DNA of 57,318 nucleotides from positions 1-57,318 of the forward strand of contig QZWS01000005.1 of the NCBI GenBank assembly GCA_004114245.1, given 5' to 3'. How positions within the stretch are numbered: the first letter of the stretch is position 1; each line of letters opens with the position of its first letter. Positions 2,910 through 55,385 of the stretch are shown one piece after another. The stretch comes from Zoopage sp. CT-All (lineage: Eukaryota > Zoopagomycota > Zoopagomycetes > Zoopagales > Zoopagaceae). Position numbers and translations under genes: made by a program. Under the pieces are notes generated by a model. That model was not told the DNA's origin, ran no database searches, and saw only the letters and a list, made by a program, of their open reading frames with translations.

Positions 2910-4535
2910 CTACAGAGCCACTCCGGTGGGCCCAGTGCTCAGCATGCCGCTGAACGCGGGGAAATCAAACCCACGCCATTTGCGACAGTTGTAGGTCAGC
3001 TCGGGGCCGGGAAACACATACGCAATCCGGTTTGGCGTCCCAGGCCGCGGGTTATCCACCTTTCCGCGCGTGCTATACTTGACCAGCGCCGAGTAGAGTT
3101 CGAACTTGGTCAGCGTGGGGCAGAAGGCGAGGTAGATCGCGGCAACGCCGGCGACGACGCCCGATGCCTGGCTAGTACCGTCAAGCGACCGGGGTGTGGT
3201 TGGGTTGAGCGAGTCGAGGGATATGGCCGCGACTCCAGGTGCGTAGAGCTGCACGCAGGAGCCATAGTTGGAGAAGAAAGCAGCCGTGTCGCGCACATCG
3301 GTGGCGCCAACGGCGAACGCGCCCGGGGAACCGGCCGGAGTGACCGTGCAGGCCTCGAGGGCGAAGAAGCCAGCGACGTTGGTGACGCCGTTGCCGGCGG
3401 CGGTGATGATGGGTACCTTGAGCTTCTTGACCACATCATCAAAGGTGTCGAATCGGCCGTTGGCTGTCAGCGACATGTTGATGATGACCGGGTCGTCGGA
3501 AAGGGCGGCCTGTATCTGGACGTATTGCACGCCGGCGAGGATGGACGAGAGTGTTCCCGAGTCGAATGAGTACAGCACCTTGACCGCCACGAGCTTGACG
3601 TGCTTGGCCACCCCATACGTTTTGGAGCCGACCAGGCCAGCAACATGCGTGCCGTGCCCGTTGGTATCAACAAAGGGATCGTCGAAGAAGGGGTCAGGGA
3701 GGACAGTGGGCGGCGGCAGGGTAGACACCCCGCCAATGACCCGGCCCTCGAAATCCGCAATGTCCGCCTGGATGCCGGTGTCGAGCACGTACACGGTCAC
3801 GCCCTTTCCGGCCTTGCGTGGAAAAATGTAGTCCTTGTAGCCTTCGGACACGCGGTGAGATATCCGGTTAAGGCCGTAAAAGGCCGGATCCTTTTGTCGA
3901 CGGAGGTTAGCGGGCGCATACATGCTCGACGATGACGATGAAGATTGCGTGGTCTGGAACACATAGTCGGGGTAAATATCCGCAACAGAGGGATTCGAGT
4001 CCAAATAGGTCAACTGATCGTTGGTGAACGATCCGGCAAAGCCGACAAACCCGTCAAGCGTGAATATTTTGTCGATGGTCGTGATGGTTGCTTTAAACGA
4101 GTCGGGGGCAACGGACGCGGTTGAGGCGAGACGAATGACGAATCGGCCGGGGTAGACAGCCATATTGAGGACGCGGAGCTTGGTAAGTGAGAGTGTTTGA
4201 GTGGTCTGCTGCTGTGTGTGGAACGGGGAGTCCGGAGTCGGAGTCGGAGCCTGGACCGGGACCTGAATTTGGGGAGCGGTGATTGGTGGCAAATTGAATA
4301 TCGGTGCGAACGAGGGGGGGGAGGGAGAGATAGGTGCAACAGAGGGCGTCTCTGGCGTCCCTGGCGCCATGGATGGCGAGTTGTTCTGGTCCACGGATAC
4401 GGGGATCGACACTTCAGCGGATATATCCGGCGCGGGGATATCTTCAGCGGAGCTCTGGGCGCGCACATCTGGCAGCGCCGCAATTATCAAGGCCGCCGCC
4501 AAGACCAATAGCACTAGCGACCGGGGCCGATGCAT
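2910..4535 (-). CDS. Secreted subtilisin-like serine protease (S8, proteinase K-like) with I9 propeptide
   Basis: The 541-aa protease starts at the ATG at 4533-4535, which opens directly into a signal peptide (MHRPRSLVLLVLAAALIIAA); the frame extends upstream without an ATG. Order: signal peptide 1-27, Pro/Ser-rich linker about 30-115, inhibitor I9-type prodomain about 127-195, S8 catalytic domain about 240-520. The triad is visible: Asp252 in VLDTGIQ, His294 in NGHGTHVAGL and Ser455 in LDGTSQASGVVAG, with oxyanion Asn382 in ITAAGNG. The usual GTSMAxPHVAG around the serine is changed to GTSQASGVVAG, so the conserved Pro-His after the serine is missing although the triad is intact. No intron is needed. 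The likely role is extracellular proteolysis; substrate unknown. Confidence 0.92.
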   Translation of the reverse strand: MHRPRSLVLLVLAAALIIAALPDVRAQSSAEDIPAPDISAEVSIPVSVDQNNSPSMAPGTPETPSVAPISPSPPSFAPIFNLPPITAPQIQVPVQAPTPTPDSPFHTQQQTTQTLSLTKLRVLNMAVYPGRFVIRLASTASVAPDSFKATITTIDKIFTLDGFVGFAGSFTNDQLTYLDSNPSVADIYPDYVFQTTQSSSSSSSMYAPANLRRQKDPAFYGLNRISHRVSEGYKDYIFPRKAGKGVTVYVLDTGIQADIADFEGRVIGGVSTLPPPTVLPDPFFDDPFVDTNGHGTHVAGLVGSKTYGVAKHVKLVAVKVLYSFDSGTLSSILAGVQYVQIQAALSDDPVIINMSLTANGRFDTFDDVVKKLKVPIITAAGNGVTNVAGFFALEACTVTPAGSPGAFAVGATDVRDTAAFFSNYGSCVQLYAPGVAAISLDSLNPTTPRSLDGTSQASGVVAGVAAIYLAFCPTLTKFELYSALVKYSTRGKVDNPRPGTPNRIAYVFPGPELTYNCRKWRGFDFPAFSGMLSTGPTGVAL

Positions 4536-4677: not shown

Positions 4678-5819
4678 TTACATTTTCTTCGCGATCCCAA
4701 GAGCAAGCGGATCCATGATCCATTCGGCAGAGAGCGACGCTTTCTTCCGCTTCTTTTGCTGTCTGGAAGCAAAGAGGTAGGTGCATCTGAGACCCGCAAG
4801 CAAGGCGTCAGATTCCGTTGCAACTGACGATTGCCTGGTGGCGGACGTGGCGGATTGGAGAAGGGCGGCAAATTGCTGTTGATCTGAAATGGTTGGGGAT
4901 CATTTGAGCAGACAGCCATGGCAAGTCATGCCTTGATAGGAAAGTGCCTGAACCATAGCAAGACCGGGAGGAGGAGCGTCTCCTGCAACCAAAGAAGGTA
5001 TTTGGGATCGCGACCGAACTTGGAATGTAGATGCAAGGTAGTGGTAGATGTTGCGGACGAAATCTGCGTTTACATCATCGTCTACGGGAAACAATCGCAT
5101 CAGCACTGGTGGTTGCCGAGGACTTATCGCATACCATTTACAGCGTCAGCCATTTGCCGCAATTTCTACAAATGATTGGTCACATTGCATGAAGCATAAA
5201 CGGAGCCATTCGCACGTTGGAATAAGATTGCGCTAGCTTGATATAAACCTCCTCTGACCCCGGGACAATGATGCTTTCAATGGTGTTGACAACAGCATCC
5301 AAATTGCCTACTAGAGGTCATCACACACAGCGTTGCCACAGAGGAGCAGCGAATCATACCCGAGGCTTGATGTGGCGATGCATCGAGAACGGGTGGATCA
5401 GGAAAAGATAGCATGGCGCCGCCAAGCTCCGCAATCGCCGAATGAGCAGAAGGCGCTTGCCGAAGCTCATCCAAATCCTCGATTGTTGCGGTGCCGGAGC
5501 CACTAATCGGGATTGGCACACGCATTACGCGTTGGCGTTTAGCAGCAGGATGCAGTGCTTGCGCCGCCATTCCCGCAGCATATGATGGGGCGCTCGCGTT
5601 GGAAAAAGCTGCGTGATGCTGCTTCCCTGAAGCTGGCTTGGCCGAGGCTGCCTGATCCAGGGGATGTGCGCTGGGCTGACCGGCATTGTCCCTGCCATCA
5701 ACGAGCACCGTCGCCCGCGATCGTATCTACACAGGTGCGACATCGTGGCTGTCAGCGCTTCAACGGCTACGGTCAACTTGCACCTGGGGAATGGTCAGCC
5801 GCGTGGATGAATGACTCAT
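4678..5819 (-). CDS. Hypothetical protein, six-exon gene
   Basis: A hand-built model joins exons 5784-5819, 5360-5726, 5216-5307, 5135-5165, 4954-5081 and 4678-4875 (minus strand). The introns are 57, 52, 50, 53 and 78 nt. All splice phases close, giving 283 aa with a terminal TAA at 4678-4680. The protein starts MSHSSTRLTIPQ and has an Ala/Ser-rich N-terminal third with a possible nuclear signal (PAAKRQRVMRV). A helical middle follows (NLDAVVNTIESIIVPG, EEVYIKLAQSYSNKLRQMA, ADFVRNIYHYLASTF) and then a basic C-terminus (QQKKRKKASLSAEW). I do not recognise the family. The last intron has alternative junctions: donor at 4953 or slightly upstream, acceptor at 4876 or about 6-9 nt away. Confidence 0.6.
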
Positions 5820-19586: not shown

Positions 19587-20048
19587 TTATATGGACTCTT
19601 CCAACACGTCATCATGCTCTTGCGCAATTCCTTTATAAACTTGAAACTTGCTGGCAGAGGGTCCTCCGCGCTCGAATAATACTTTGCCGATGGCCATCAG
19701 GTGCAGATCAGCCTTATCCACCTGCGGGTACCTTACTACTGCGTCAAATCTGACCTTTTCTACCATCCAGAAAAACAATTGCGGGTCAACGCTGCCAGAC
19801 ATTGATGCTTTCACAGTGCCTTGGCCAGATTTCAGCGGACGCCCTTCAAATAACGCGCCGAGGGCCATCGCGCGTACGCAATCTGCTCCCATCCAACTGT
19901 ACTTTTCGAAATCAGACTTGTATAATCGTATCAAAGCTAGCAGCTTGCGGTTGCTGTCAATCGCGTCAGATGCAGAGATAGGGGTAAGCATGGTCGCAGC
20001 GATGGCGGCAATGGCAACGGTGGAGAGGAGGAGAGTGCCGATCTTCAT
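19587..20048 (-). CDS. Secreted protein, local family B, copy 1
   Basis: The 153-aa protein starts at the ATG at 20046-20048 with a strong signal peptide (MKIGTLLLSTVAIAAIAATM, cleavage near ISAS-DAID). The mature part shares blocks with two paralogs at 22576 and 26390: ALGALFEGR, VKASMSGSVD, YPQVDKADLHLMAIGKVLFE and RGGPSASKFQVYKG. I do not recognise the family outside this window. The untranslated leader is also shared between copies, with a conserved GGGCGTTATTGTAGCTG-like stretch 20-60 bp upstream of the ATG. This suggests recent duplication of whole transcription units. No cysteine-rich scaffold is present. Confidence 0.7.
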   Translation of the reverse strand: MKIGTLLLSTVAIAAIAATMLTPISASDAIDSNRKLLALIRLYKSDFEKYSWMGADCVRAMALGALFEGRPLKSGQGTVKASMSGSVDPQLFFWMVEKVRFDAVVRYPQVDKADLHLMAIGKVLFERGGPSASKFQVYKGIAQEHDDVLEESI

Positions 20049-21932
20049 CGTGGAGTGTATGGTGCTGTATTGGTTATGGGCGTTATTGTAGCTGTGCTGG
20101 CTGCGGCGGAGAGGACGGTGGGGCAGATGGCCTTTGTTTGACGTAGCAGCCAGGGATGTGCGGTGTTGACTGTTCTCAATGACATCTGCTTGAACATTGT
20201 TGGCTGCATTGGCCACTGAGCAACAGCAGTATTCTGCTTTTTACAGTGAATAATTGCACAGTTACTTCCTAATTTCTATCCCTAAATATTCTTGAGATTT
20301 GGCTATCTGCATACTATGCTGACAAACAGCAGGTAAGGATGGAGTTCTTGGGCTAAGCTGATGTATTTTCTGGTTCTAGGAGATTTCCTTTTTATGGGGA
20401 GTATAATGTATGTAGTAAAGATGGAATTGTCCAGGTAGGGGATTTGTATCTTGTGGAATATAGTGTGCATTTGTCAGCTTATCTACAATCAAAGCAGCCT
20501 TGAATACTACTTTTTTACTTCTATAATGCTCTAGAATATTCCAGAATACTACAAAAAGTAGCAACTTATCTTACTTATGCATAACTATGTAGAATAGTAA
20601 ACAAAAAACATGTGTTACCTATTCCATATAAATAACTCTCAAATAGATAAATATGCTGTAATTAAATTATATAAGAGTGATTGTTAGCACTAAATCATGC
20701 ATGAAACCCTATGGGAAAATACTTAGTCACTGGATAGCTTACTGATTGTTTAAATGGTGATGGCAATTAATATGCAATGTGGGGCTTGACTATTATAAGA
20801 GCCTTATATTTAGTAAGCCTTTTCCTCAACTATATGAGGGGATGGTAATGAGAAGAGTGGCAGAGAAGGTGGAGGGGGGACCAAGAATCTGCAGAACTCA
20901 ATGTATTCTTATGAACAGAAAAGAGACTGCTCTTCAGCCATCTATCTGCTCTACACTATAAAGGCCAAGTAATTACAGTCACTCTCTCTTGCCCTTTCTC
21001 CTTGCCCAACAACCAGTACACTACTGCTTGGGTCTGCATTATGACAAAAGTACATAACCTTGCTACTTAAAGTCCAGAATAATAAAGAATCCACAGGCAT
21101 CTGGTGCGTGTGTGAAAGAAACCTGAGTCACAATTGGTAGTCCATGGTGGCACCTCGCTCAGTATGAAGATTTGAGATGCATCAAAATTGGTAGCCGCCA
21201 TGTCGCGTTCTAAGTACAAAGAAGAAAAATCCCGTGTATACATTCCGTAGAATATATTGCAGGTCACCACACACACTTTTTTATTTTTACTTTTGGGGGC
21301 GAGACACCAGAAGTACCAATTCCTGGATCTCCTGGTGTAAAGGCTGTAGTGAAGCCTGAAGGACCGTGCTGGATGAGGCCGGCTTGGGGGTGGATGGACA
21401 GTATGATGCTCGTATGATTTGAGGAGACGGAGGTGGCCACCCGACGCCCACGTGTTCGTCCACGCGGCAGCCACGCGGCCGCAAATGCCATCGCCGCGCC
21501 ATGCCCACCACTGTCATCATCCCCATGACAATAGCAGACGCCATGCCATAGACAGGGCATGGGATCACCTCTTCACCAGCCACTTCATCCATCACCTGGT
21601 GAGGCCCCTGGTCCTTGTCCTTGCTTCCTTGCCGCCAGCCATTGCCGAGATGTTGAAGCACCCCGACTCCTGGAAGGGCTCGCTAACCGCTGTGTAATGG
21701 CGCGGCCCTTGTGGTGTGGCACCAGTCACCAAAGCGCATTGCTCCAGTTGATGGACTAGAGGAAAGAGAGCCGAGGGAGAAGGTTAAGAGGTCTGCGGAT
21801 GATGGGGGATGGCGGCGAACGAAAAAGAGGAGATGCGCGTTCTAAGTACAATTGAATTAGTGGACAGCTTCCGGGCACAACGCCACACGCTGTCAGCAAC
21901 GCCTCTCAACATCTCCACCTCGTGCATTTGCC
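20049..21932. other. AT-rich intergenic region with a GC-rich island
   Basis: From about 20220 to 21060 the sequence is AT-rich with only short frames, and I see no gene. Between about 21290 and 21700 base composition switches to GC-rich, and several overlapping frames of 90-135 codons appear on both strands. None has an ATG start combined with a recognisable domain, so this may be a decayed gene or captured fragment. The last 150 bp are the promoter side of the secreted A gene. Confidence 0.4.
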
Positions 21933-22508
21933 ATGCCTCGCATCACGATCTCCCTTGCCACTCTCATCCTTATCCTCGGGTGCACTGCCACTATATCTCC
22001 CGCAGCAGCCGGCAGTCGCCTTAATGCCGTGTCATGGACCGCCAGCACCCTGCGCTCTCTGCTCGCCCATGCCACCAATCCGCTGTCCACCAATCCGCTG
22101 TCCGAAGATGATCCTCCCCACCGCTGTCTGCGCACCCCAGACGGCACCACTATATCATGCGTTTTGCCCGCCGCCATTGAGCCCACTATGCCCCGCAATG
22201 CTGCATTTGTGTCCAGTATCGCTGATGCACTCCGCGCTCACTCCAAGTTGCCTCCTGGGTGTGCGTGGGAATTTTCTACCGTGTTCTGGGGCGATCGATC
22301 CGTGCCCAGGCTGGTAGATGCGTTGCATCACAAGTCTGGAGGAAACCCGAGCAAGAAGGCAGTAGGATATTGGTCGCTGGATATCGTGTTGCCCGTCCAA
22401 CCCGATGCGCTGCAGCGAGTAAATGTGGTTGTTCTACCGGGTGTCATGTGGGATGGCAAGGATGCAGTGGTGGCAGGGGTCGGGGATGGTAAGAGCAGAC
22501 GGTATTAG
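21933..22508 (+). CDS. Secreted protein, local family A
   Basis: The 191-aa protein starts with ATG at 21933 and a signal peptide (MPRITISLATLILILGCTAT, cleavage near PAAAG). The mature region contains a short internal duplication (NPLSTNPLS), one pair of cysteines around RCLRTPDGTTISC, and the blocks FVSSIADALRAHSKLPPG and PDALQRVNVVVLPGVMWDGK. The family is not recognised. It is convergent with family B copy 2, with stops 67 bp apart. A decayed second copy of this gene lies at 26089-26338, again convergent with a B gene. Confidence 0.65.
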   Translation: MPRITISLATLILILGCTATISPAAAGSRLNAVSWTASTLRSLLAHATNPLSTNPLSEDDPPHRCLRTPDGTTISCVLPAAIEPTMPRNAAFVSSIADALRAHSKLPPGCAWEFSTVFWGDRSVPRLVDALHHKSGGNPSKKAVGYWSLDIVLPVQPDALQRVNVVVLPGVMWDGKDAVVAGVGDGKSRRY

Positions 22509-22575
22509 TCTGTTGAAGAGTCATAGCAGGATGCTCTTGGAAGACGTAAAATCTATTTGCGCCACAGTTCAGCTC

Positions 22576-23025
22576 TTACTGCGTATCATACTCAAAATAT
22601 CGTTTAGAGGGTGCTCCACGCTCAAGCAATGTTTTGCCGATGGCCAGCTGGCGCAGATCAGCCTCATTCACCTCTGGGTATTGTATTCGGAACTTTTCTA
22701 TGTTTATACGTACCAAATTTTCAAAATCAACATCTCTAACGCTGCCAGTTATTGATACTTTCACCTGAAAGCTGATATTTGAGCCAACTACTGGCGATGT
22801 GTTCCCTATAAATAACGCGCCAAGGGCAAACATGGTACGATGCTCTGGTTTCATCCAAGGAAGCGTAATTTTGCATTTCCTTTCGATGGGTTTCATCAGA
22901 TCTTGAATAATGTGGGTATTTTTAATCATGTGATGTGAAGCGGTAGAGGCAGAGGTAGAGGTAAGCATGGTCGCAGCCATGGCGACAATGGCGACAGCGG
23001 AGAGAAGGAGAGTGCCGATCTTCAT
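22576..23025 (-). CDS. Secreted protein, local family B, copy 2
   Basis: The 149-aa protein starts at the ATG at 23023-23025. The signal peptide MKIGTLLLSAVAIVAMAATM is nearly the same as in copies 1 and 3, but the mature sequence is strongly diverged. Shared blocks are MFALGALFIG, VKVSITGSV, YPEVNEADLRQLAIGKTLLE and RGAPSKRYFEY. The 5' leader matches that of the other copies. It sits tail-to-tail with the intact A gene. Secretion is inferred from the signal peptide; function is unknown. Confidence 0.7.
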   Translation of the reverse strand: MKIGTLLLSAVAIVAMAATMLTSTSASTASHHMIKNTHIIQDLMKPIERKCKITLPWMKPEHRTMFALGALFIGNTSPVVGSNISFQVKVSITGSVRDVDFENLVRINIEKFRIQYPEVNEADLRQLAIGKTLLERGAPSKRYFEYDTQ

Positions 23026-23153
23026 CAAGGAGTGTATGGTGCTGTATTCGTTTTGGGCGTTATTGTAGCTGCGCTGGTTGCGAAAGGCTGCAGTGGGGAG
23101 GGAAGACAGCAGTTGCTGCAAAACATATGCAAATTTCCGTGAATGTAATTTTC

Positions 23154-23192
23154 CAGGGGTGCTTATTTAGGCGCCAAAAATAAGCACCCCTG
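23154..23192. repeat. Perfect hairpin with hAT-like CAGGGGTG termini
   Basis: CCAGGGGTGCTTATTT (23153-23168) and its exact reverse complement AAATAAGCACCCCTGG (23178-23193) flank a 9-nt loop. The CAGGGG..CCCCTG ends and the GGTGCTTATTT core match the 56-bp mini-element at 966-1021. No 8-bp target duplication is visible here. It marks the distal edge of the duplicated A/B block. Confidence 0.6.
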
Positions 23193-23379
23193 GTGATTAC
23201 GCAGTCACTCCCAATCTAATATTTGGCTGCTTCGACTGTCTCAAATATCTACTACCTCCTACCTGTAAGGTGCCTGGGGAGGTGTGGCTGGGCAGACATG
23301 ATCTAACCAGCTGCTTCCTCCCGGCTCTCTGAACATCTTACAAGAACAAAATATATTCAATATACAGCTCAATGACATC

Positions 23380-26032
23380 TCAGACATACGCCTCCCGCTC
23401 CTGTCTCTTGGTCTTCATCTCCGTATCTCGCTTCCTAAAGAGCAAGTGTCGCTCAGACTTCTTCACCGCCTTCTTGCGGTCTTGCTCCTCGTACGCCATA
23501 TCGGCTCCTCCACTCAGCCCCTTGAGTGAGCCCTTGGTGCGCTTCACCGTCTTGTTGATCACCACTTTCTTGCCAGTGCCGTCTACCATAAAGTCCTCCG
23601 CTAATGATTCGTCCCGCGCACAGGCAAGCAGCGTGGCCTGCAGCAGCTCAAGGCGCGCTCGCGGTTCCCGATACACCAGCCCCTCCATCTCGCTCATCCC
23701 TTCCAGTCGCGTAATCACCTTGAATGCATAGCCTTGGTCGATCAGAAACCGCTGTCGGCGGGTCGAATACGCCATCTCCTGCGTGTCTTTCGATACGAGA
23801 CTGTAGAAAAAGGCATTGAAGCCTTCGTCGTTTCGCCGCTTTGCGCGCAGAATGCGTCCCAGTCGCTGGGCTTCCTGCCGTCGCGAGCCATAGTGCGAGG
23901 AGATCTGGATCAAGCACGTCGCCTCGGGGAGGTCAATCGATGTGTCGCCGACCTTGGAAAGGAAGATGGTGTTGAGCTGCGGGTTGTGCTGAAACTGGTG
24001 CAGCACCCGCATGCGCTCGTCTTGGCCCGTCGCACCATAGATAAACGGCCGGCCCATCAGCAATGCGTAGCGTTCTAGCGCATAAACATTGTCCGAAAAC
24101 ACAATGATTTTATCTCCGCGTTTCTCGTGGTAGTTGATCAGGAACTGACAGCTCTGAATCTTGACAGGGTTCATCGTGTAGAGCAGCGATCGCTTCTTGC
24201 CTTTCATTCGGAGATACTCGCGGTAAAACTCTGGCGACATGGTGCACCAGACTTCGGCGCATTGCACATTCGCAATGTACCCGCGGCGAGACAAATCCAT
24301 CCAATTGGCCTCGTACAGCTTGGGTCCGATCAGGAAATTCAAATCGGCAATCTTGTTGTCCTCGCGAACAAGGGTCGCGGTGAGTCCAAGCTTGGCATGG
24401 GTGGCCACGGTGGTGACGACCTTGCGGAACATGTCCGCAGGGACGACGTGGACTTCGTCAAGGAGCAGGAAGCCCCACTCGCGCTCTTGCATGAACCGCA
24501 TCATTTGCTGCGCGCCATACGATCTCTTGCCGGTGTAGGCCAGCATGGTGTATGTGCTGATGACAACGCCTGCTTTGCCCTTGAACTGGAAAAGGCATCA
24601 GTGTGGGCATAGAGGCTCTAGCGCAACTCACCCGCTCCTGGTGCTGCGAGGTAAAGACAGCAATGTCCTCCTCCTTGATGGTGCTCCACATCAGGAATTG
24701 CTGCTTCCATTGCATGACCGAGACGGAGCTGGTGCACAAGACAAGCACGCTCTTCCTGATCGTGCAGGCAGCGGTGATGCCAACCAGCGTCTTGCCGGCA
24801 CCACACGGCAACACGATGACACCACTGCGCGCCCGTCCATTTCCAAACATCTTGCTTAGGCTGCGCTCCTGGTACGGCCGAATGACGGTTACGGGGCGCA
24901 GATCAATCTCCAGGTCAGGGTTATCCAGGTCCTGTCGGAAGTCGTACTCCTCGAGCACTGGGAGATCAATGACCGCGCAACGGCGCTTGACGCGTTCGAC
25001 GTGATCACGACTGATTTCGAACGAGTGGACGTGTTCGCTCTCACCGCCGTCATCGTCCATGGCATCTCGGTTCAGGATATCATCAATGACGTTGCCTTCG
25101 GCGGAAGCGGGCTCCAGGGTGTCTTGCATTTTCGAGGTGCCTGGAATAGTGATGGGGGTGACAAGCGGCGCAGACGTTGTGACACCAGCGGGCAGTCCAG
25201 TTGCTGCAGATAGGGACTCGGTCTCGACGGATGGGATGCGAGCGTCTCGAATGATCTCATCTTGGAGCAGCCGTCGCACGACATCTGCCCATGTACTCTC
25301 CAGGTAGTACCTATTTCCTTTCAAAACCAGCTTGACCTTTCCATACGCCTGTGTACACCGCTGGATAAATTCAACCACCGTTGCTGGGAGATAGGACTTT
25401 GACAGGCGTTCAAGCACCGAGACAATCGAGTCTGGATCCAGCCCGACCGAGATAGCCGCATAGAGCGAGTACGGAGACAGCTTGTACTCGTGTATAAAGG
25501 ATGGCCGTGACACCGGCTCGGCAATGGCGGTGAGGAAATCCTGGGCCTGCTCGGCAAGGGGCGAGAAGGCCTCGAGGAGGATGGAGCCAGAGTCGGGCAG
25601 CACCCACAATGGGCGCTGCGCGTGGTCTGGCTTAAGCGGCAAGTGGCGATAGTTTTCCTTTCCATAGAACAGTGCATCGGCGAGATCCGGAGCAGCAGTG
25701 GATGCAGAGTGCGTGAGACGAAGGTGGGACACGCGTGGGATCAAGTCATCCGTCGCGGGATCCGCGTGGTCTAGAGAACAGCATCAAGGATGTGGATTGC
25801 TGCCGTATGTGCTTTGCCGTATTCCTCGTCGTCCTGGTCGCTGTCAAAATCGACATTATCACCGAGATCGGCGTCGAGATCGGCCTCGGAGGCAGCGGCA
25901 GCGGAGGCAACAGGCGTGGTTGAGCGCGAGCGCTTTGGCTCGACTGCATCGGTAGTTGTGGCTAGACATGCAGGGTCATTACAGTATAGTGGGGGGTTCA
26001 GGGGTACAAAGCGGGCGGCGCTTGGGCGGCAT
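23380..26032 (-). CDS. TFIIH DNA helicase/translocase subunit XPB (ERCC3/Rad25)
   Basis: XPB is the 3'-5' translocase of TFIIH used in promoter opening and nucleotide excision repair. Exons 26008-26032, 25818-25961, 24632-25770 and 23380-24585 give 837 aa, with introns of 46, 47 and 46 nt. The second intron (25771-25817) must use a GC donor (GCAAAG..CTCTAG) to keep frame. The N-terminus reads MPPKRRPL, then an acidic stretch and the XPB N-terminal domain ([20 protein letters not shown]). Helicase motifs: CGAGKT near residue 380, DEVH near 480 ([14 protein letters not shown]), [22 protein letters not shown] and [11 protein letters not shown]. The C-terminal region is basic. The gene lies between two copies of the duplicated secreted-protein cassette, and its start codon is about 57 bp from the decayed A copy. 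Confidence 0.95.
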
Positions 26033-26088
26033 CTCGGATGTGGTGGATAATCAGGTCGGTGACTCTGGCCAGTCTCGACATGTTTCGA

Positions 26089-26338
26089 ATGCTCTGTTTG
26101 TGTCCAGTGGTATCGCAGACGCACTCCGCGCTCACTCCAAGTTGCCTCCTGGTGTGCATGTGAATTTTCCACCGTGTTCCGGGGCGATCGATCTGTGCGC
26201 AAACCGGTGGATGCCGTGCTGCCTGTTCAATACAACATGCTGCAGCGAGCAAGTGCAGCTATTCTACCGAGTGTCATGTGGGATGGCAAGGGTGCAGTGA
26301 TGGCAGGGGTCAGTGATGGTAAGAGCAGACGATATTAG
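26089..26338 (+). pseudogene. Truncated, frameshifted copy of secreted family A
   Basis: This stretch is homologous to the 3' half of the intact A gene at 21933-22508. It begins at the segment encoding NALFVSSGIADALRAHSKLPPG and ends at the matching SDGKSRRY and TAG. The signal peptide and N-terminal half are absent. One G is missing just after the PPG codons, which shifts the frame. About 65 bp are deleted further on, where the intact copy encodes HHKSGG to DIVLP. It therefore cannot make the A protein. It stays convergent with family B copy 3, as in the parental arrangement. Confidence 0.75.
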
Positions 26339-26389
26339 TTCTAAAGAGTCATGACAGGATGCTCTTGAAAGACGTAGAATCTATTCGCG

Positions 26390-26821
26390 TCACAGTCTAG
26401 CTTTCAATGGCAGTCTATACTCATAATTTGGATCTAAGGGTGCTCCATGCTCAAGCAATGCTTTGCCGATGGCCAGCTGTTGCAGAACAGGCTTAATCGC
26501 CTTTGGGTATATCTCTCTAAAAGCTACTATGAACCGATATACCAGCGAATTAAAAGCCTCGGTTTCAATCTGGCCAGTGATTGATACCCTTGTCCGGAGG
26601 TTGAGGGTTTCGCCAATTACCGACGATATCTTCTCGTCTAACAATGCGCCGACTTTAATATAGTCAAGATGCTCTGGTTTCAACCAAGAATGCGTATTGT
26701 GGATTGGGAGTGTGAGTTGTTTCAACATGGTTCGCACATGGCTGTCGCCCGTTGCAGAGATCGAGGTAAACATGGTCGCAGCGATGGCGACGGTGGAGAG
26801 GAGGAGAGTGCCGATCTTCAT
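26390..26821 (-). CDS. Secreted protein, local family B, copy 3
   Basis: The 143-aa protein starts at the ATG at 26819-26821 with signal peptide MKIGTLLLSTVAIAATMFTS. The mature domain shares VKVGALLDEK, RVSITGQIE, YPKAIKPVLQQLAIGKALLE and HGAPLDPNYEY with the other B copies, but most positions between these blocks differ. The upstream region to about 27014 is homologous to the region upstream of copy 2, including a shared ATTTCCGTGAAT stretch. It ends at the boundary of a different mobile element. Confidence 0.7.
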   Translation of the reverse strand: MKIGTLLLSTVAIAATMFTSISATGDSHVRTMLKQLTLPIHNTHSWLKPEHLDYIKVGALLDEKISSVIGETLNLRTRVSITGQIETEAFNSLVYRFIVAFREIYPKAIKPVLQQLAIGKALLEHGAPLDPNYEYRLPLKARL

Positions 26822-27019
26822 TGTGGAATGTATGATGCTGTATTTGTTATAGGCGTTATTGTTACTGCGCTGGCTGTGAGCAGAGGCTGCGGCGGAGGGA
26901 GGAGAGGAAAACGGAGCAGATGGTCTTCAGGTCTAAATTAAGAATTTATACTAACCAATTACGTGAATGGCGCAAAACAATATGCGAAATTTCCGTGAAT
27001 ACAAATTTCCGCCATCAAT

Positions 27020-27435
27020 AGGGTGTTTGCGCAAAGTCATTCCAGTTCCATAACATTCCATTAGCTGGGTCATCAGAATGACTGCCCAGCAGCACGCCAG
27101 GGTGAACTTGCCTAGTCGGCTGGATTTACATTGTAGCTCAGTGGATGCAGTCAGATGGAGGGACACATATGACAGCCCAAGTCAGCAAGAGACAGACACA
27201 CTGCTGTGAATAGCTTTGCTTGCAGGAAGTCATCATGGCAATGGTGTTTGTGTGCAAATTCTTTTGAGTCCTCCCTTGATATAGTGACACCTAATTGTTC
27301 AGCAGGTTAATGCCACTATATCAAGGGTGTCACTATGTCAAGAGAGAAATATAAATGTTGAAATCTAATTGTCCAGTGGTTTGATGTCACTATATCAAGG
27401 GAGAACTCTGTATTCCGGTTCCGTTCCGATAATAC
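27020..27435. mobile_element. Truncated copy (X2) of TIR element X, with a nested MITE
   Basis: The left end AGGGTGTTTGCGCAAAGTC (from 27020) matches both ends of the element at 55505-57065. The far part (TTCTTTTGAG.. and GGTTCCGTTCCGATAA near 27250 and 27412) matches sequence just inside the right end of that element. The right terminal repeat is missing, so this copy is truncated. A 133-bp MITE interrupts it between CTTTTGAGTC and AACTCTG. The copy ends about 65 bp before the start codon of the next gene. Confidence 0.55.
27271..27403. mobile_element. 133-bp MITE with 19-bp perfect terminal inverted repeats
   Basis: The ends are CTCCCTTGATATAGTGACA (27271-27289) and its exact reverse complement (27385-27403). 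Inside, the TATATCAAGGG motif recurs at 27316-27327, followed by a degenerate copy (GTGTCACTATGTCAAGAGAG). A 38-bp direct repeat beginning CTAATTGTYCAG occurs at about 27291 and 27366. The termini look like Tc1/mariner/pogo-class ends. No coding sequence and no clear TA duplication are visible. Confidence 0.7.
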
Positions 27436-29225: not shown

Positions 29226-29422
29226 GAGTGGCGGTGGCCCCGTTTCCTTCCGTATCAAATGAATGCATACTAGATTAGTTTCTTGAAGCATCGGGAATGC
29301 TAGCTGAAAACAGGTGTATTGATGATCATCGGGAGTTGGACAGAGCAAAGCCACATTACACACGTCTCTAATCAGCACGAATCAGCAACCCGTCTGAAAG
29401 GGAGGAGGAAGCGATCAGACAG

Positions 29423-30027
29423 TTCAAATCCACACGATAGCAACATCGGAAAATGTAGGTAAGGAAATTATGATATACGGTCATCATCTCATAGGCGAGC
29501 GTGCGAATGGCAAAACTACCTTGTGCAGAACAATGGAACGAAGCGACGCGGTACAGCTGCAGCCGATCCACCAACCCCTCGAGAAGCACACAACACACCA
29601 GGTAAGAAGAACCAGAGCCTAGAGAATGAACACGGTCAGGGTCCTGCGTCGGTGAAAACGGGATCGCAAAAAGTCGAGGGCAGGTCAGAAAATTCAAATC
29701 CACACGATAGCAACATCGGAAAATGTAGGTAAGGAAATTATGATATACGGTCATCATCTCATAGGCGAGCGTGCGAATGGCAAAACTACCTTGTGCAGAA
29801 CAATGGAACGAAGCGACGCGGTACAGCTGCAGCCGATCCACCAACCCCTCGAGAAGCACACAACACACCAGGTAAGAAGAACCAGAGCCTAGAGAATGAA
29901 CACGGTCAGGGTCCTGCGTCGGTGAAAACGGGATCGCAAAAAGTCGAGGGCAGGTCAGAAAATTCAAATCCACACGATAGCAACATCGGAAAATGTAGGT
30001 AAGGAAATTATGATATACGGTCATCAT
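29423..30027. repeat. 270-bp direct tandem repeat, two full copies plus a partial
   Basis: Copies run 29423-29692, 29693-29962 and 29963-30027 (partial). By eye the two full copies are identical. Because 270 is divisible by three, reading frames stay open across copies; this explains the long minus-strand frame at 29368-30027 and the two identical plus-strand frames. I do not take these as genes. The array ends about 40 bp downstream of the RPS18 stop codon. On the minus strand each unit holds ATGATGA followed about 70 nt later by CTGA, like a box C/D snoRNA, but no terminal stem is clear. Confidence 0.85.
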
Positions 30028-30069: not shown

Positions 30070-30534
30070 TTACTTCTTCTTGGACACACCGACGGTCTTT
30101 CCACGACGGCCAGTCGTCTTGGTGTGCTGGCCCCTGACGCGCAGACCCCAGGCATGACGCAGCCCGCGGTGATTCCTGATCTTCTTCAGCCGCTCCAAAT
30201 CCTCACGCATCTTGTTGTCCAGACCGTTGGCCAGCACCTGGGTGGTTGACCCGTCACGAATATCCCGCTGCCTGTTCAGGAACCAGGCGGGGATCTTGTG
30301 GTCGAGCGGGTTCTGGATGATGGTGATGATGCGCTCGAGCTCGCTGTTGGAGAGGTCGCCGGCGCGCTTGGTGTGGTCAATGTCGGCCACCTTGAGCACC
30401 AGGTTGGAGTAGCGCCTGCCCACGCCCTTGATGGCGGTCAGTGCGAACATGGTCTTCTGCTTGCCATCGACGTTGGTGTTGAGCAGACGGAGGATGTGCT
30501 GGAACTGCGTCTTGTCGGGGACGACGAGCGACAT
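30070..30534 (-). CDS. RPS18: Cytosolic small-subunit ribosomal protein uS13 (RPS18)
   Basis: The 154-aa protein matches the usual RPS18 length. The start ATG at 30532-30534 gives [20 protein letters not shown]; the frame is open further upstream but without homology. Family blocks are [52 protein letters not shown] and the basic C-terminus [20 protein letters not shown]. It is located in the head of the 40S subunit. No intron interrupts the coding part. Confidence 0.97.
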
Positions 30535-49644: not shown

Positions 49645-51876
49645 ATGCGCGTTCTTCTTCGCCGCGGCCTTGGCCCCGGCCCGTCCCAGCTCCGCCATGC
49701 CCGCCGCTCCTCCTCTGCTGCCACCGCCACGTCCCTTAGCTCCACATGGTCGGCTCTGGCTGCCAAGGAACTCCGCGGCAAGGACCCCGCCTCGCTCATC
49801 TTTCCCACCGCCGAGGGCATCCCCATAAAGCCCATCTACACTGCCGCCGACATCCCGACAGCCACCCTTCCCGAAAACGCAGATGAACACGTTCCGGGCG
49901 TGAGGCCATACACCCGCGGCGTCTACGCAACCATGTACACCCACCGTCCGTGGACAATTCGGCAGTACGCGGGCTTCTCGACCGTGGAGGAATCCAACCG
50001 CTTCTACCGCAAGAATCTTGCAGCCGGGCAGCAGGGGCTGAGCGTGGCCTTTGATCTGGCTACGCATCGTGGCTACGACAGCGATCATCCGCGGGTGAAG
50101 GGCGATGTGGGCATGGCGGGCGTCGCCGTCGACACTGTCGAGGATATGCGGGACCTCTTCGATGGGATCCCCTTGGGTGACATCTCGGTGTCCATGACCA
50201 TGAACGGGGCTGTGCTCCCCGTGCTGGCAATGTACGTCGTCGCGGCAGAGGAGCAGGGCGTGCCACAGGCAAAGCTTGCCGGGACCATCCAGAACGACAT
50301 TCTCAAGGAGTTTATGGTGCGCAACACGTTTATATACCCGCCGGATGCGTCCATGCGGATCATTGGGGATATATTTGAGTACACGGCCGGACACATGCCC
50401 AAGTACAACTCGATTTCCATCTCCGGGTACCATCTGCAGGAGGCTGGGGCCGACGCCCGGCTCGAGCTGGCGTTCACCATCGCTGACGGAATCGAGTACA
50501 TCCGCACCGGAATGCGCGCCGGGCTCAGCGTGGATGATTTCGCGCCAAGATTATCCTTCTTCTTTGGCATTGGAATGAGCTTCTACATGGAGGTGGCCAA
50601 GCTGCGGGCGGCGCGGCGTCTGTGGTATGATCTCGTCACCAAGCTCTTCCAGCCCAAGAGCGCCAAGTCAACGCTGCTGCGCACGCATTGCCAAACATCG
50701 GGATGGTCACTGACTGAGCAGGATCCGTACAACAACATCATTCGCACCACGGTCGAGGCAATGGCGGCCACGCTCGGTGGAACGCAGTCGCTGCACACCA
50801 ACGCATACGACGAAGCCGTCGGGCTCCCGACCGAGTTTTCTGCTCGCGTTGCAAGAAATACCCAGCTTATCCTGCAAGAAGAGAGCGGCATCACGCGTGT
50901 GGCAGATCCCTGGGGCGGCTCCTACATGATGGAGGCGCTCACTAATGATTTGTACAACGCCGCCATGGAGATTATCAATGAAGTAGAGGAGCTCGGCGGC
51001 ATGGCCAAGGCAGTGGCGTCCGGCATGCCAAAGCTCCGGATCGAAGAGTCCGCGGCCCGGCGCCAGGCTCGGATTGACAGTGGCAAGGAGGTGATCGTCG
51101 GCGTCAACAAGTATCGCCTCGAGACCGAGGATCCTATGGATGTGCTTGCGATTGACAATACCAAGGTGCGGGAGGGCCAGGTGCGACGGCTGCAGGAGCT
51201 CAAGGCACGCCGCAATGCAGCTGAAGCAAAGGCAGCGCTCGATGCGTTGACCGAAAGTGCCCGAACGGGCGAAGGAAACCTACTCGGGCTGAGCATCGAT
51301 GCGGCCCGAGCACGCTGCACGCTCGGAGAGATTTCCGATGCACTGGAAAATGTCTACGGACGGCACAATCCTACGCTGCGTGTCATCAGTGGCGCGTACA
51401 GGTCCGAGTATGGAGACGATTCCGAAGTCGCCGAGACCCTCAAAGTCGTGGAGGAGTTTGCCAGTGTGCATGGTCGTCGCCCCCGAATGCTGGTTGCCAA
51501 GATGGGCCAGGACGGGCACGACCGAGGCGCAAAAGTCATCGCATCTGGGTTCGCCGATCTCGGCTTCGATATTGACATTGGCCCGCTGTTCCAAACCCCC
51601 GAGGAGGTCGCTCGCCAGGCTGTCGATGCTGATGTTCACGCAGTGGGCGTGTCTTCTCTCGCGGCAGGTCACAAGACGCTGGTGCCCGAGCTCATCGAGG
51701 CGTTGAAGAAGGCTGGTGCCGCCGATAAAGTGATCGTATGCGGTGGCGTAATTCCGCCTCAGGATTATCCTTTCTTGCGGGACGCAGGTGTCGATTGTAT
51801 CTTTGGGCCTGGGACAAAGCTGCCCGATGCCGCACGAGAGGTAGTCAGGGCCATTGACAAAGCGTTGGAAAGTTAG
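49645..51876 (+). CDS. Methylmalonyl-CoA mutase, mitochondrial
   Basis: The 743-aa intronless protein matches the full-length single-chain mutase. The first 35 residues are Arg/Ser-rich without acids ([20 protein letters not shown]), a typical mitochondrial targeting peptide. The TIM-barrel substrate domain follows, with [40 protein letters not shown] and [17 protein letters not shown]. The C-terminal cobalamin domain carries the DGHDRG motif near residue 623, where His is the lower cobalt ligand. It interconverts (R)-methylmalonyl-CoA and succinyl-CoA in propionate catabolism. The enzyme needs B12, so the organism must acquire it. Presence in early-diverging fungi and absence from most Dikarya is established. 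Confidence 0.97.
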
Positions 51877-53786: not shown

Positions 53787-55385
53787 ATGAATATTCTTCC
53801 ACACTGCATTCTTGTTGCTCTGCTATGGGCAAGTGCTGTCACAGCACCCAATGGAAAGAAGCCTCCTGGCACTGGCTTGATGGCGACTCCTGTCGGCCAT
53901 GCTCCCTCATCCGCCACTGGCGATTGTTTGCCAGCAAGCAACCTTCTTGATCTCCCGGGCCACAGCGACATTTTGTCTCTTGTGTCCAAGCATCTATCAG
54001 ATAAGACTCTCGTCGACTGGCAACGAACCTGTAAGACTGCGTATGCCGACGCAAGCAAACATGTCCGCATGGCACTTGCCCAACAATTGGCACTCAGTTT
54101 GCTCAATCCAAAGATTGACAAGGTGGTTGCCGCCCTAACCAAAATACGCGATGCCTTTAAGGGTGATCCAAGCAAGTACGGTACAGAGCCTCTGCATTTA
54201 CCATCCTGCTTCAATCCCGCCTATACTCCTAAGCAGCGCACACTTTGCCTTGAGAATCTATGGCTCACTACTCAGGGACAGCACAGCATCCTCTTGCCAG
54301 ACTGGGTAATGCCATCGCTGAAAGACCTTGCGCATGCTCTCGCCATGGGCTACTCTATGGATAATCACGTATACACAAACTGGCATATAGACTTTGTACT
54401 GAAGCAACGGGAGTCACTGCTGACCGAGATTCAGCCAGACGATGAATGGTCCGCTGACGCATATAAATGGCTCATTATGGCGCTCGAGCACATTCAACAC
54501 CATTATAGGAGTCGCATTGTAAACCGCTTTGCAATCCAGCAAACATCCGTCGCCGAACCCCTCCAGCATGCTATATCTGCTTTCATCTGTCGCCTTGTTG
54601 CAGATGAAATCAAGCCTTATGTCAAGGGCCAACGTGTCACTGGCGGTTTTACGACATTTGAGAGCGTTATATCGCGCGTTATATCGCACGTCTTCAATGA
54701 GCTGAATTTGCGGACTATACAAATATCAGGCTTTCTCCAGAGCAGCCTATTGTATCCTGGTTATCGGTTCAATCCTTTGGAGAGCATGCGCAAATCAGGC
54801 CGTCACCACCCAAGCCTCCGCGATATTGTCACTGGGTTGATCAGCGTCTTTGACCCGCCCATTTCGACCGCCGACAAGAATAACCTCGTCAAAAAGTGGT
54901 TAATTGACTCTGTGATCCCTCAGAGTGATGTTGTCCATGATAAAAAGCGCGTTTCAGATCGTCAACTAGTCAAGAGATTTTCATATTACCTGATGGCAGC
55001 ACCTCATCTGAAGACACTTATGGAGACTGTTGTCATCTCTGCGCTTCTCGGTTCAGGGCCATCACAAGACTTGTCAAGCAGGATTGGTCCAATCAGTGCA
55101 CAACAGGTAGACGAGATTTTGGAATGGGAATGGAAGTACGCAGCGCTTAAGTGCCTTGCAGCCCTTGGCAGAGCGGAAGTGTCATCAGAACTGGTGCGTA
55201 TCCTTGATAAGAAAAGGCATATTCCGGGATGGGTGGATCGTGCTCGTTTAAGGAAAGAAATGAAAGCGCCGACCACGTCTCCTTGGAAAGTGTTTGTGTC
55301 CAAGCTCAAGTCTTGGCTAGGTCAGCGCAAACCAGGCAAGAAGAAGCAGTCAGATGCAGGTGCAAAGTCTGTTATAGTTGAATAG
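53787..55385 (+). CDS. Secreted protein with an F-box-like segment
   Basis: The 532-aa intronless frame begins with a signal peptide (MNILPHCILVALLWASAVTA) and would be exported after cleavage near residue 20. At about residues 52-90 a segment resembles an F-box: LLDLPGHSDILSLVSKHLSD, then a hydrophobic-spaced WQRTCKTAYADASKHVRMAL. The remaining 440 residues are helical (AYKWLIMALEHIQHHYRSRI, FESVISRVISHVFNELNLRT) and end in a basic tail (GQRKPGKKKQSD). No enzyme motif is seen. A signal peptide together with an F-box-like segment is unexpected for a normal cytosolic ubiquitin-ligase subunit. It would fit a secreted effector or a repurposed domain; the F-box call is tentative. Confidence 0.6.
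   Translation: MNILPHCILVALLWASAVTAPNGKKPPGTGLMATPVGHAPSSATGDCLPASNLLDLPGHSDILSLVSKHLSDKTLVDWQRTCKTAYADASKHVRMALAQQLALSLLNPKIDKVVAALTKIRDAFKGDPSKYGTEPLHLPSCFNPAYTPKQRTLCLENLWLTTQGQHSILLPDWVMPSLKDLAHALAMGYSMDNHVYTNWHIDFVLKQRESLLTEIQPDDEWSADAYKWLIMALEHIQHHYRSRIVNRFAIQQTSVAEPLQHAISAFICRLVADEIKPYVKGQRVTGGFTTFESVISRVISHVFNELNLRTIQISGFLQSSLLYPGYRFNPLESMRKSGRHHPSLRDIVTGLISVFDPPISTADKNNLVKKWLIDSVIPQSDVVHDKKRVSDRQLVKRFSYYLMAAPHLKTLMETVVISALLGSGPSQDLSSRIGPISAQQVDEILEWEWKYAALKCLAALGRAEVSSELVRILDKKRHIPGWVDRARLRKEMKAPTTSPWKVFVSKLKSWLGQRKPGKKKQSDAGAKSVIVE

Follow-up and report, generated by a model that had tools for sequence, protein, structure and literature searches.

The analysed window, a stretch of 57,318 bases corresponding to contig C253 of an 8.6 Mb assembly in 419 contigs, probably carries members of an orphan family of small secreted proteins, termed B, that combines a shared leader, local duplication, leader conversion and a diversifying mature part, with the A-B 'cassette' of the original prediction as one such duplication. 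Its probability is put no higher because dN/dS covered four of the 45 possible pairs of intact B members. The genes B0, B1 and B2 form a same-strand cluster of this multi-locus family, in which a 5' leader, consisting of about 55 bases of upstream DNA and a putative signal peptide of about 27 residues, is common to members and the mature part differs. Copies may arise by local duplication, their leaders may be kept alike partly through gene conversion, and their mature parts may be pushed apart by diversifying selection. One such duplication would have ended within the adjacent gene A, of which a dead remnant was left.

The B family and its products

Three intact B genes occupy the minus strand of the window. 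B0 (19587-20048, 153 aa), found in genome searches, is the third member of the cluster; it lies 2.5 kb to the left of the A-B block, was absent from the earlier two-copy account and has no A match beside it. Its upstream leader DNA extends over 20049-20105, and the interval 19968-20105 is 89% identical to that of B1. B1 (22576-23025, 149 aa), described from its open reading frame (ORF), a structural model and profiles, has a leader peptide at about residues 1-27 followed by two putative helical repeats of about 45 aa each, and B2 (26390-26821, 143 aa) was identified from its ORF and the genome search. Genome searches with B proteins and B 5' DNA identified at least 11 loci on six contigs, comprising three on C253, three on C256, two on C375 and one each on C282, C414 and C373; the counts for both A and B are lower bounds, as best-scoring candidates were counted and the assembly is possibly incomplete. 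The loci on C253, C256 and C375 (8 of 11) are clustered, and all 11 were recovered by the 5' DNA search. An open frame of 97-153 codons with the leader peptide is present in ten of them. The C373 copy is frame-broken; several ORFs that presumably belong to a copia-type element follow, the first of them about 0.6 kb beyond its start.

At their N-terminus B members carry similar leader peptides of about 27 residues, and in front of the start codon they have some 55 bases in common. The hydropathy peak within the N-terminal 35 residues reaches 2.2-2.8 in the B members in L028-L031, where two listed C256 ORFs start further upstream; from this leader, assessed by eye for the members in the window, we infer that the products are secreted. 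The mature part is cysteine-poor, with 0-2 cysteines in 10 proteins. Two units of about 45 residues, ending in an A[LIV]G-type motif, are present in B0, B1, C282, C256a and C256b, and in several distant members the motif appears in the first half and again in the second. Two profiles, one of first units and one of second units, were built from these members, with B2 added to the latter; they matched each other with a score of 48.0, which became 35.4 without C256a and 21.0 (probability 42%) without C256a and C256b. In each set, none of 100 column shuffles reached the observed score, the highest shuffle scoring 12.8-14.8. Two clear repeat units are lacking in the C414 member and the C375 pair, all of which are shorter. 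The model of B1, computed from a three-sequence alignment (pLDDT 62.9, pTM 0.60), predicts two pairs of helices connected by a small pair of strands. Separately, the member at 2923-3360 of L029, on C256, shows an internal duplication of the repeat unit; the position of its stop codon corresponds to a coding site in the first unit, and sequence resembling the repeat extends beyond the stop.

Searches for relatives covered sequence, profile and structure. No Pfam-A family exceeded the curated cut-off for B0, B1, B2 or A1 (best E 0.11). A single-sequence search with B1 against a collection of 5.8 billion proteins gave no match at E 0.001, none of the 7992 candidates scored with a 10-member B profile against the same collection reached E 0.01, and phage records contained no match to B1. 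Among eight matches up to E 10 in a profile search of PDB sequences none was significant; the best of them, to a beta-lactamase at E 0.045, covered profile positions 1-43, which are mostly leader, and was taken as chance. For B1, Foldseek listed 27 matches with E values of up to 10, of which none reached 0.001, and VIA likewise produced nothing convincing. The literature searched, at the level of titles and abstract openings, does not describe the B family.

Conversion, divergence and selection

The leader and mature segments carry different histories in the C375 pair and among B0, B1 and B2. In the C375 pair, 273 bases are identical (4538-4810 of L031), spanning upstream DNA, the leader and the first mature codons; 44 of 192 bases differ in the remaining coding part (4810-5001), and the bases just left of the identical tract also differ. 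Mature synonymous sites of this pair differ at 4 of about 39 positions, versus 0 of 273 bases in the tract (p 0.0002). Among B0, B1 and B2, two-against-one sites unite B1 with B2 in 2 of 21 cases in the leader block versus 64 of 142 in the mature part (p 0.0016). The C375 tract and this site pattern point to gene conversion of the leader segment; the conserved leader could also reflect constraint on the promoter and signal peptide, rather than conversion alone.

All segments of the duplicated A-B block are of one age unless converted later, which allows B1 and B2 to be compared with their flank. The two copies differ at 48 of 313 aligned bases in the dead A plus spacer, and B1 and B2 differ at 9 of 71 bases in the leader, 20 of 83 upstream and 135 of 346 in the mature part. 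Nonsynonymous change in the mature part amounts to about 106 of 263 sites versus the 48 of 313 in dead A plus spacer (p 2e-11). Since the flank sets intact A1 against dead A2, and A1 is possibly constrained, it may underestimate neutral change by as much as half. Most changes in the flank are transitions (42 of 48), and these occur in both directions, with 24 G>A or C>T versus 18 T>C or A>G, so RIP-like directional mutation of the copy is not claimed.

Estimates of dN/dS were obtained with a pairwise codon model written for this analysis. For the mature part of B1/B2, omega was 2.66 (p 0.0027), and over the 108 gap-free codons it was 2.83, with a likelihood ratio reached by 1 of 200 simulations at omega = 1. 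The mature part of the C375 pair gave an omega of 4.52 over 63 gap-free codons (p 0.0026; 0 of 200 neutral simulations). No significant result was obtained for B0/B1 (1.11), for B0/B2 (0.82) or between the internal repeats of C256a (1.97), and the two pairs with omega significantly above 1 are the two least diverged of the four. Nei-Gojobori counts with a Fisher test were not significant for either B1/B2 (p 0.145) or the C375 pair (p 0.052). Diversifying selection on mature B is supported in two of the four pairs tested.

Paralog recombination can mimic positive selection, and signs of recombination are present. The differences between mature B parts might stem from ectopic recombination, by which paralogs exchange or acquire segments behind the common leader, rather than from selection in favour of point changes, leaving the amino-acid excess as a by-product. 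Leader and body histories are indeed discordant in B0/B1/B2 and in the C375 pair. The dS of the B1/B2 mature part, 0.40, also exceeds the flank divergence of 48/313 (about 0.17, Jukes-Cantor corrected by hand), and transversions are far commoner in the mature part (75 transversions to 60 transitions) than in the flank (6 to 42). However, recombination among neutral or constrained paralogs should not alone lift omega above 1 over long gap-free stretches, as is seen in two separate pairs, and the 11 loci yielded no paralog whose mature part matches closely enough to have been a donor. Segment exchange as the main source of the differences is considered unlikely, and diversifying selection on locally duplicated copies is retained as the preferred reading.

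A weaker account takes B as relaxed, nearly neutral orphan genes without strong function, alike in the leader only through recent conversion. An omega near 1 in B0/B1 and B0/B2, weak codon bias and the broken frame of the C373 member would fit it, but 10 of the 11 copies keep an open frame with an intact leader, the A[LIV]G-type motif is repeated across several distant members, and neutrality does not account for the two pairs in which omega is significantly above 1, making relaxation very improbable.

The A-B block and its surroundings

Self-comparison of the window aligned 22375-23109 with 26205-26906 (70% over 740 columns, E 7e-86), 22197-22321 with 26088-26214 (85%, E 8e-35) and 23118-23154 with 26972-27010 (87%). 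Order is kept, with 22197-23109 colinear with 26088-26906 and XPB, an essential helicase gene of DNA repair, in between. The E values of 7e-86 and 8e-35 exclude chance as the source of the match, and the A-B block duplication is confirmed. The duplicated block comprises about the last 103 codons of A, the A-B spacer, B and the B 5' region. The original prediction placed a convergent A/B pair at two sites, copied as one block of about 1 kb with XPB between the copies, and the single colinear match agrees with it, extending beyond the B coding sequence into the 3' part of A, the spacer and the B 5' region. The convergent spacer between A1 and B1 (22509-22575, 67 bases) shows 12 mismatches in 65 aligned bases against the second copy. 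Upstream of B1 (23026-23154, minus strand), the segments 23026-23109 and 23118-23154 match the segments 26822-26906 and 26972-27010 upstream of B2 (26822-27010, minus strand). Homology of the spacer and of the region upstream of B, as predicted, is present in the alignment; the upstream similarity, however, is a property of the whole B family, the first approximately 55 bases matching all of it, and being family-wide it says nothing about A.

A1 (21933-22508, plus strand) is an intact ORF of 191 codons and the only intact copy found; with its hydrophobic N-terminus, it was judged by eye to be putatively secreted. Its codon-usage index exceeds that of 493 of 500 random synonymous draws. A1 has no Pfam family above the curated cut-off and no homolog at E 0.001 in the protein collection search, and its single-sequence structure model (pLDDT 35.6) was unusable. 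A2 (26088-26339, plus strand), recognized by self-comparison and genome search, is a broken, partly deleted remnant of about codons 88-191. It is without the first approximately 87 codons and matches A1 in three pieces spread over two reading frames; a gap of about 18 codons separates the second piece from the third. The expectation that only B is intact in the second copy is borne out, A2 being a broken remnant and B2 remaining open over 143 codons. The genome search with A1 returned one intact copy and one remnant, A1 and A2, both in the window.

The co-duplication had also been taken as a sign of a linked functional or regulatory unit, for example convergent co-regulated secreted genes copied because the pair works together, and a genome-wide search for further A/B pairs bears on this directly: A was found nowhere else, and B multiplies without it. 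Contiguity, convergent orientation across a 67-base spacer and copying in one block would suit such a unit, but no A match was found at nine of the 11 B loci, neighbouring B0 among them, only B2 of the ten loci other than B1 has A beside it, and there A died as B2 stayed open, so a linked unit is rejected on copy numbers in this assembly (one intact A found, ten other B loci without intact A) and is judged highly unlikely. As B multiplies without A and no second intact A is found, the co-duplication is best read as one block duplication within the B cluster with its edge inside A, for which no functional link is needed. The duplication itself is ordinary.

XPB separates the two copies, as had been proposed. 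Its ORFs at 23380-24546 and 24458-25129 (23380-25129, minus strand) encode an XPB/ERCC3 helicase, the C-terminal domain being confirmed by a Pfam match of the first ORF to ERCC3_RAD25_C (E 4e-121); read by eye, the 5' end of the gene may lie near 26034-26081, reached through introns. A 41-base near-perfect palindrome with the arm AGGGGTGCTTATTT, detected as a self-inverted match at 23153-23193, lies upstream of B1 and adjoins the end of the B1/B2 upstream similarity. The 14-base arm has 25 exact matches in the genome, including C373:14203-14263 and others, with 0 for a reversed control, and it occurs as facing pairs in five contigs, 23-54 bases apart start to start. The palindrome at 23153-23193 may be a MITE-like element. 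Upstream of B2, nested inverted repeats of a CTTGATATAGTGACA unit occupy 27266-27408, with four copies at up to one mismatch and none in 100 shuffles, and possibly represent a second small palindromic element.

Other features of the window were recorded alongside the cluster. The interval between B0 and A1 (20170-21100) is AT-rich, with 36.6% GC versus 54.9% for the window. At 29423-30027, a 270-base unit is repeated 2.2 times with 100% identity, and these repeats account for the greater part of an open frame of 219 codons (29368-30027, minus strand); the adjoining small ORF at 30070-30534 is what we take to be ribosomal protein S18. Further candidate secreted proteins include a subtilase with a weak inhibitor I9 match (2910-4535) and an ORF of 532 aa whose N-terminus is hydrophobic and which matches no Pfam family above cut-off (53787-55385). 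An Rfam scan and a tRNA scan with the bacterial setting gave no matches in the window.

Relation to known systems and significance

Many fungal small secreted proteins are cysteine-rich. The B proteins are cysteine-poor and, in several members, have a helical two-repeat layout, which sets them apart. They nevertheless resemble fungal small secreted proteins regarded as candidate effectors (PMC9723739) in length below 200 residues, an apparent signal peptide, no relatives found and no known domain. RXLR and Crinkler effectors of oomycetes (PMC3820680, PMC3726527) are likewise small and secreted, with a conserved N-terminal and a fast-changing C-terminal part, and for RXLR families there are reports of positive selection, of duplication and of gene conversion or recombination between paralogs. 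No sequence or fold match connects B with either family, the organism group is probably different, and B has about a dozen loci (at least 11) versus several hundred. Membership of B in these families was rejected: an RxLR motif after the signal peptide was found in none of the 10 intact proteins, nor was an LFLAK-like Crinkler (CRN) motif, scored under our assumed form [LI][FY]LA[KR]. Families such as conotoxins and frog skin peptides (on which see PMC8066144, PMC7106915) share with B a near-uniform leader and a diversified mature product; B differs in its longer mature part (about 70-126 residues), in not being cysteine-rich and in its fungus-like genome, and no homology was found.

The B family is multi-copy and without relatives found, and its mature-part dN/dS is above 1 in two of four pairs. 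It is probably a rapidly diversifying family of small secreted proteins, of a general kind already known. Taken together, the absence of relatives, the clustering, the keeping of frames and dN/dS above 1 fit proteins that confront a host, a prey organism, a competitor or a mating partner. We infer that selection on B is exerted by a host, prey or competitor encountered outside the cell; most likely the B products are secreted and owe their diversification to such a host, prey or rival. The suggestion of a host-interaction locus is plausible for B, given the dN/dS results. A bolder and quite unlikely extension treats upstream-plus-leader as a recombination cassette, in which conversion would keep renewing one common promoter and leader in clustered as well as dispersed copies, and any diverged mature segment would thereby stay expressed and exported. 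A small-genome fungus would then possess a compact means of diversifying secreted proteins for recognition or attack, built on a new type of helical repeat.

Many early-branching fungi parasitize other organisms. The window contains, at 49645-51876, an open frame for methylmalonyl-CoA mutase with a B12-binding domain. Cobalamin is used in non-Dikarya fungal lineages and was probably lost at the base of Dikarya (PMC8085122). The mutase together with that loss suggests an early-branching, non-Dikarya fungus, in this case one with a small genome. If the reading of B as a locally duplicating, diversifying family is right, a fast-evolving secreted family without known relatives is present in a small and probably early-branching fungal genome, and the A-B duplication and the C375 pair serve as natural experiments in which the histories of leader and mature part can be told apart within single genes.
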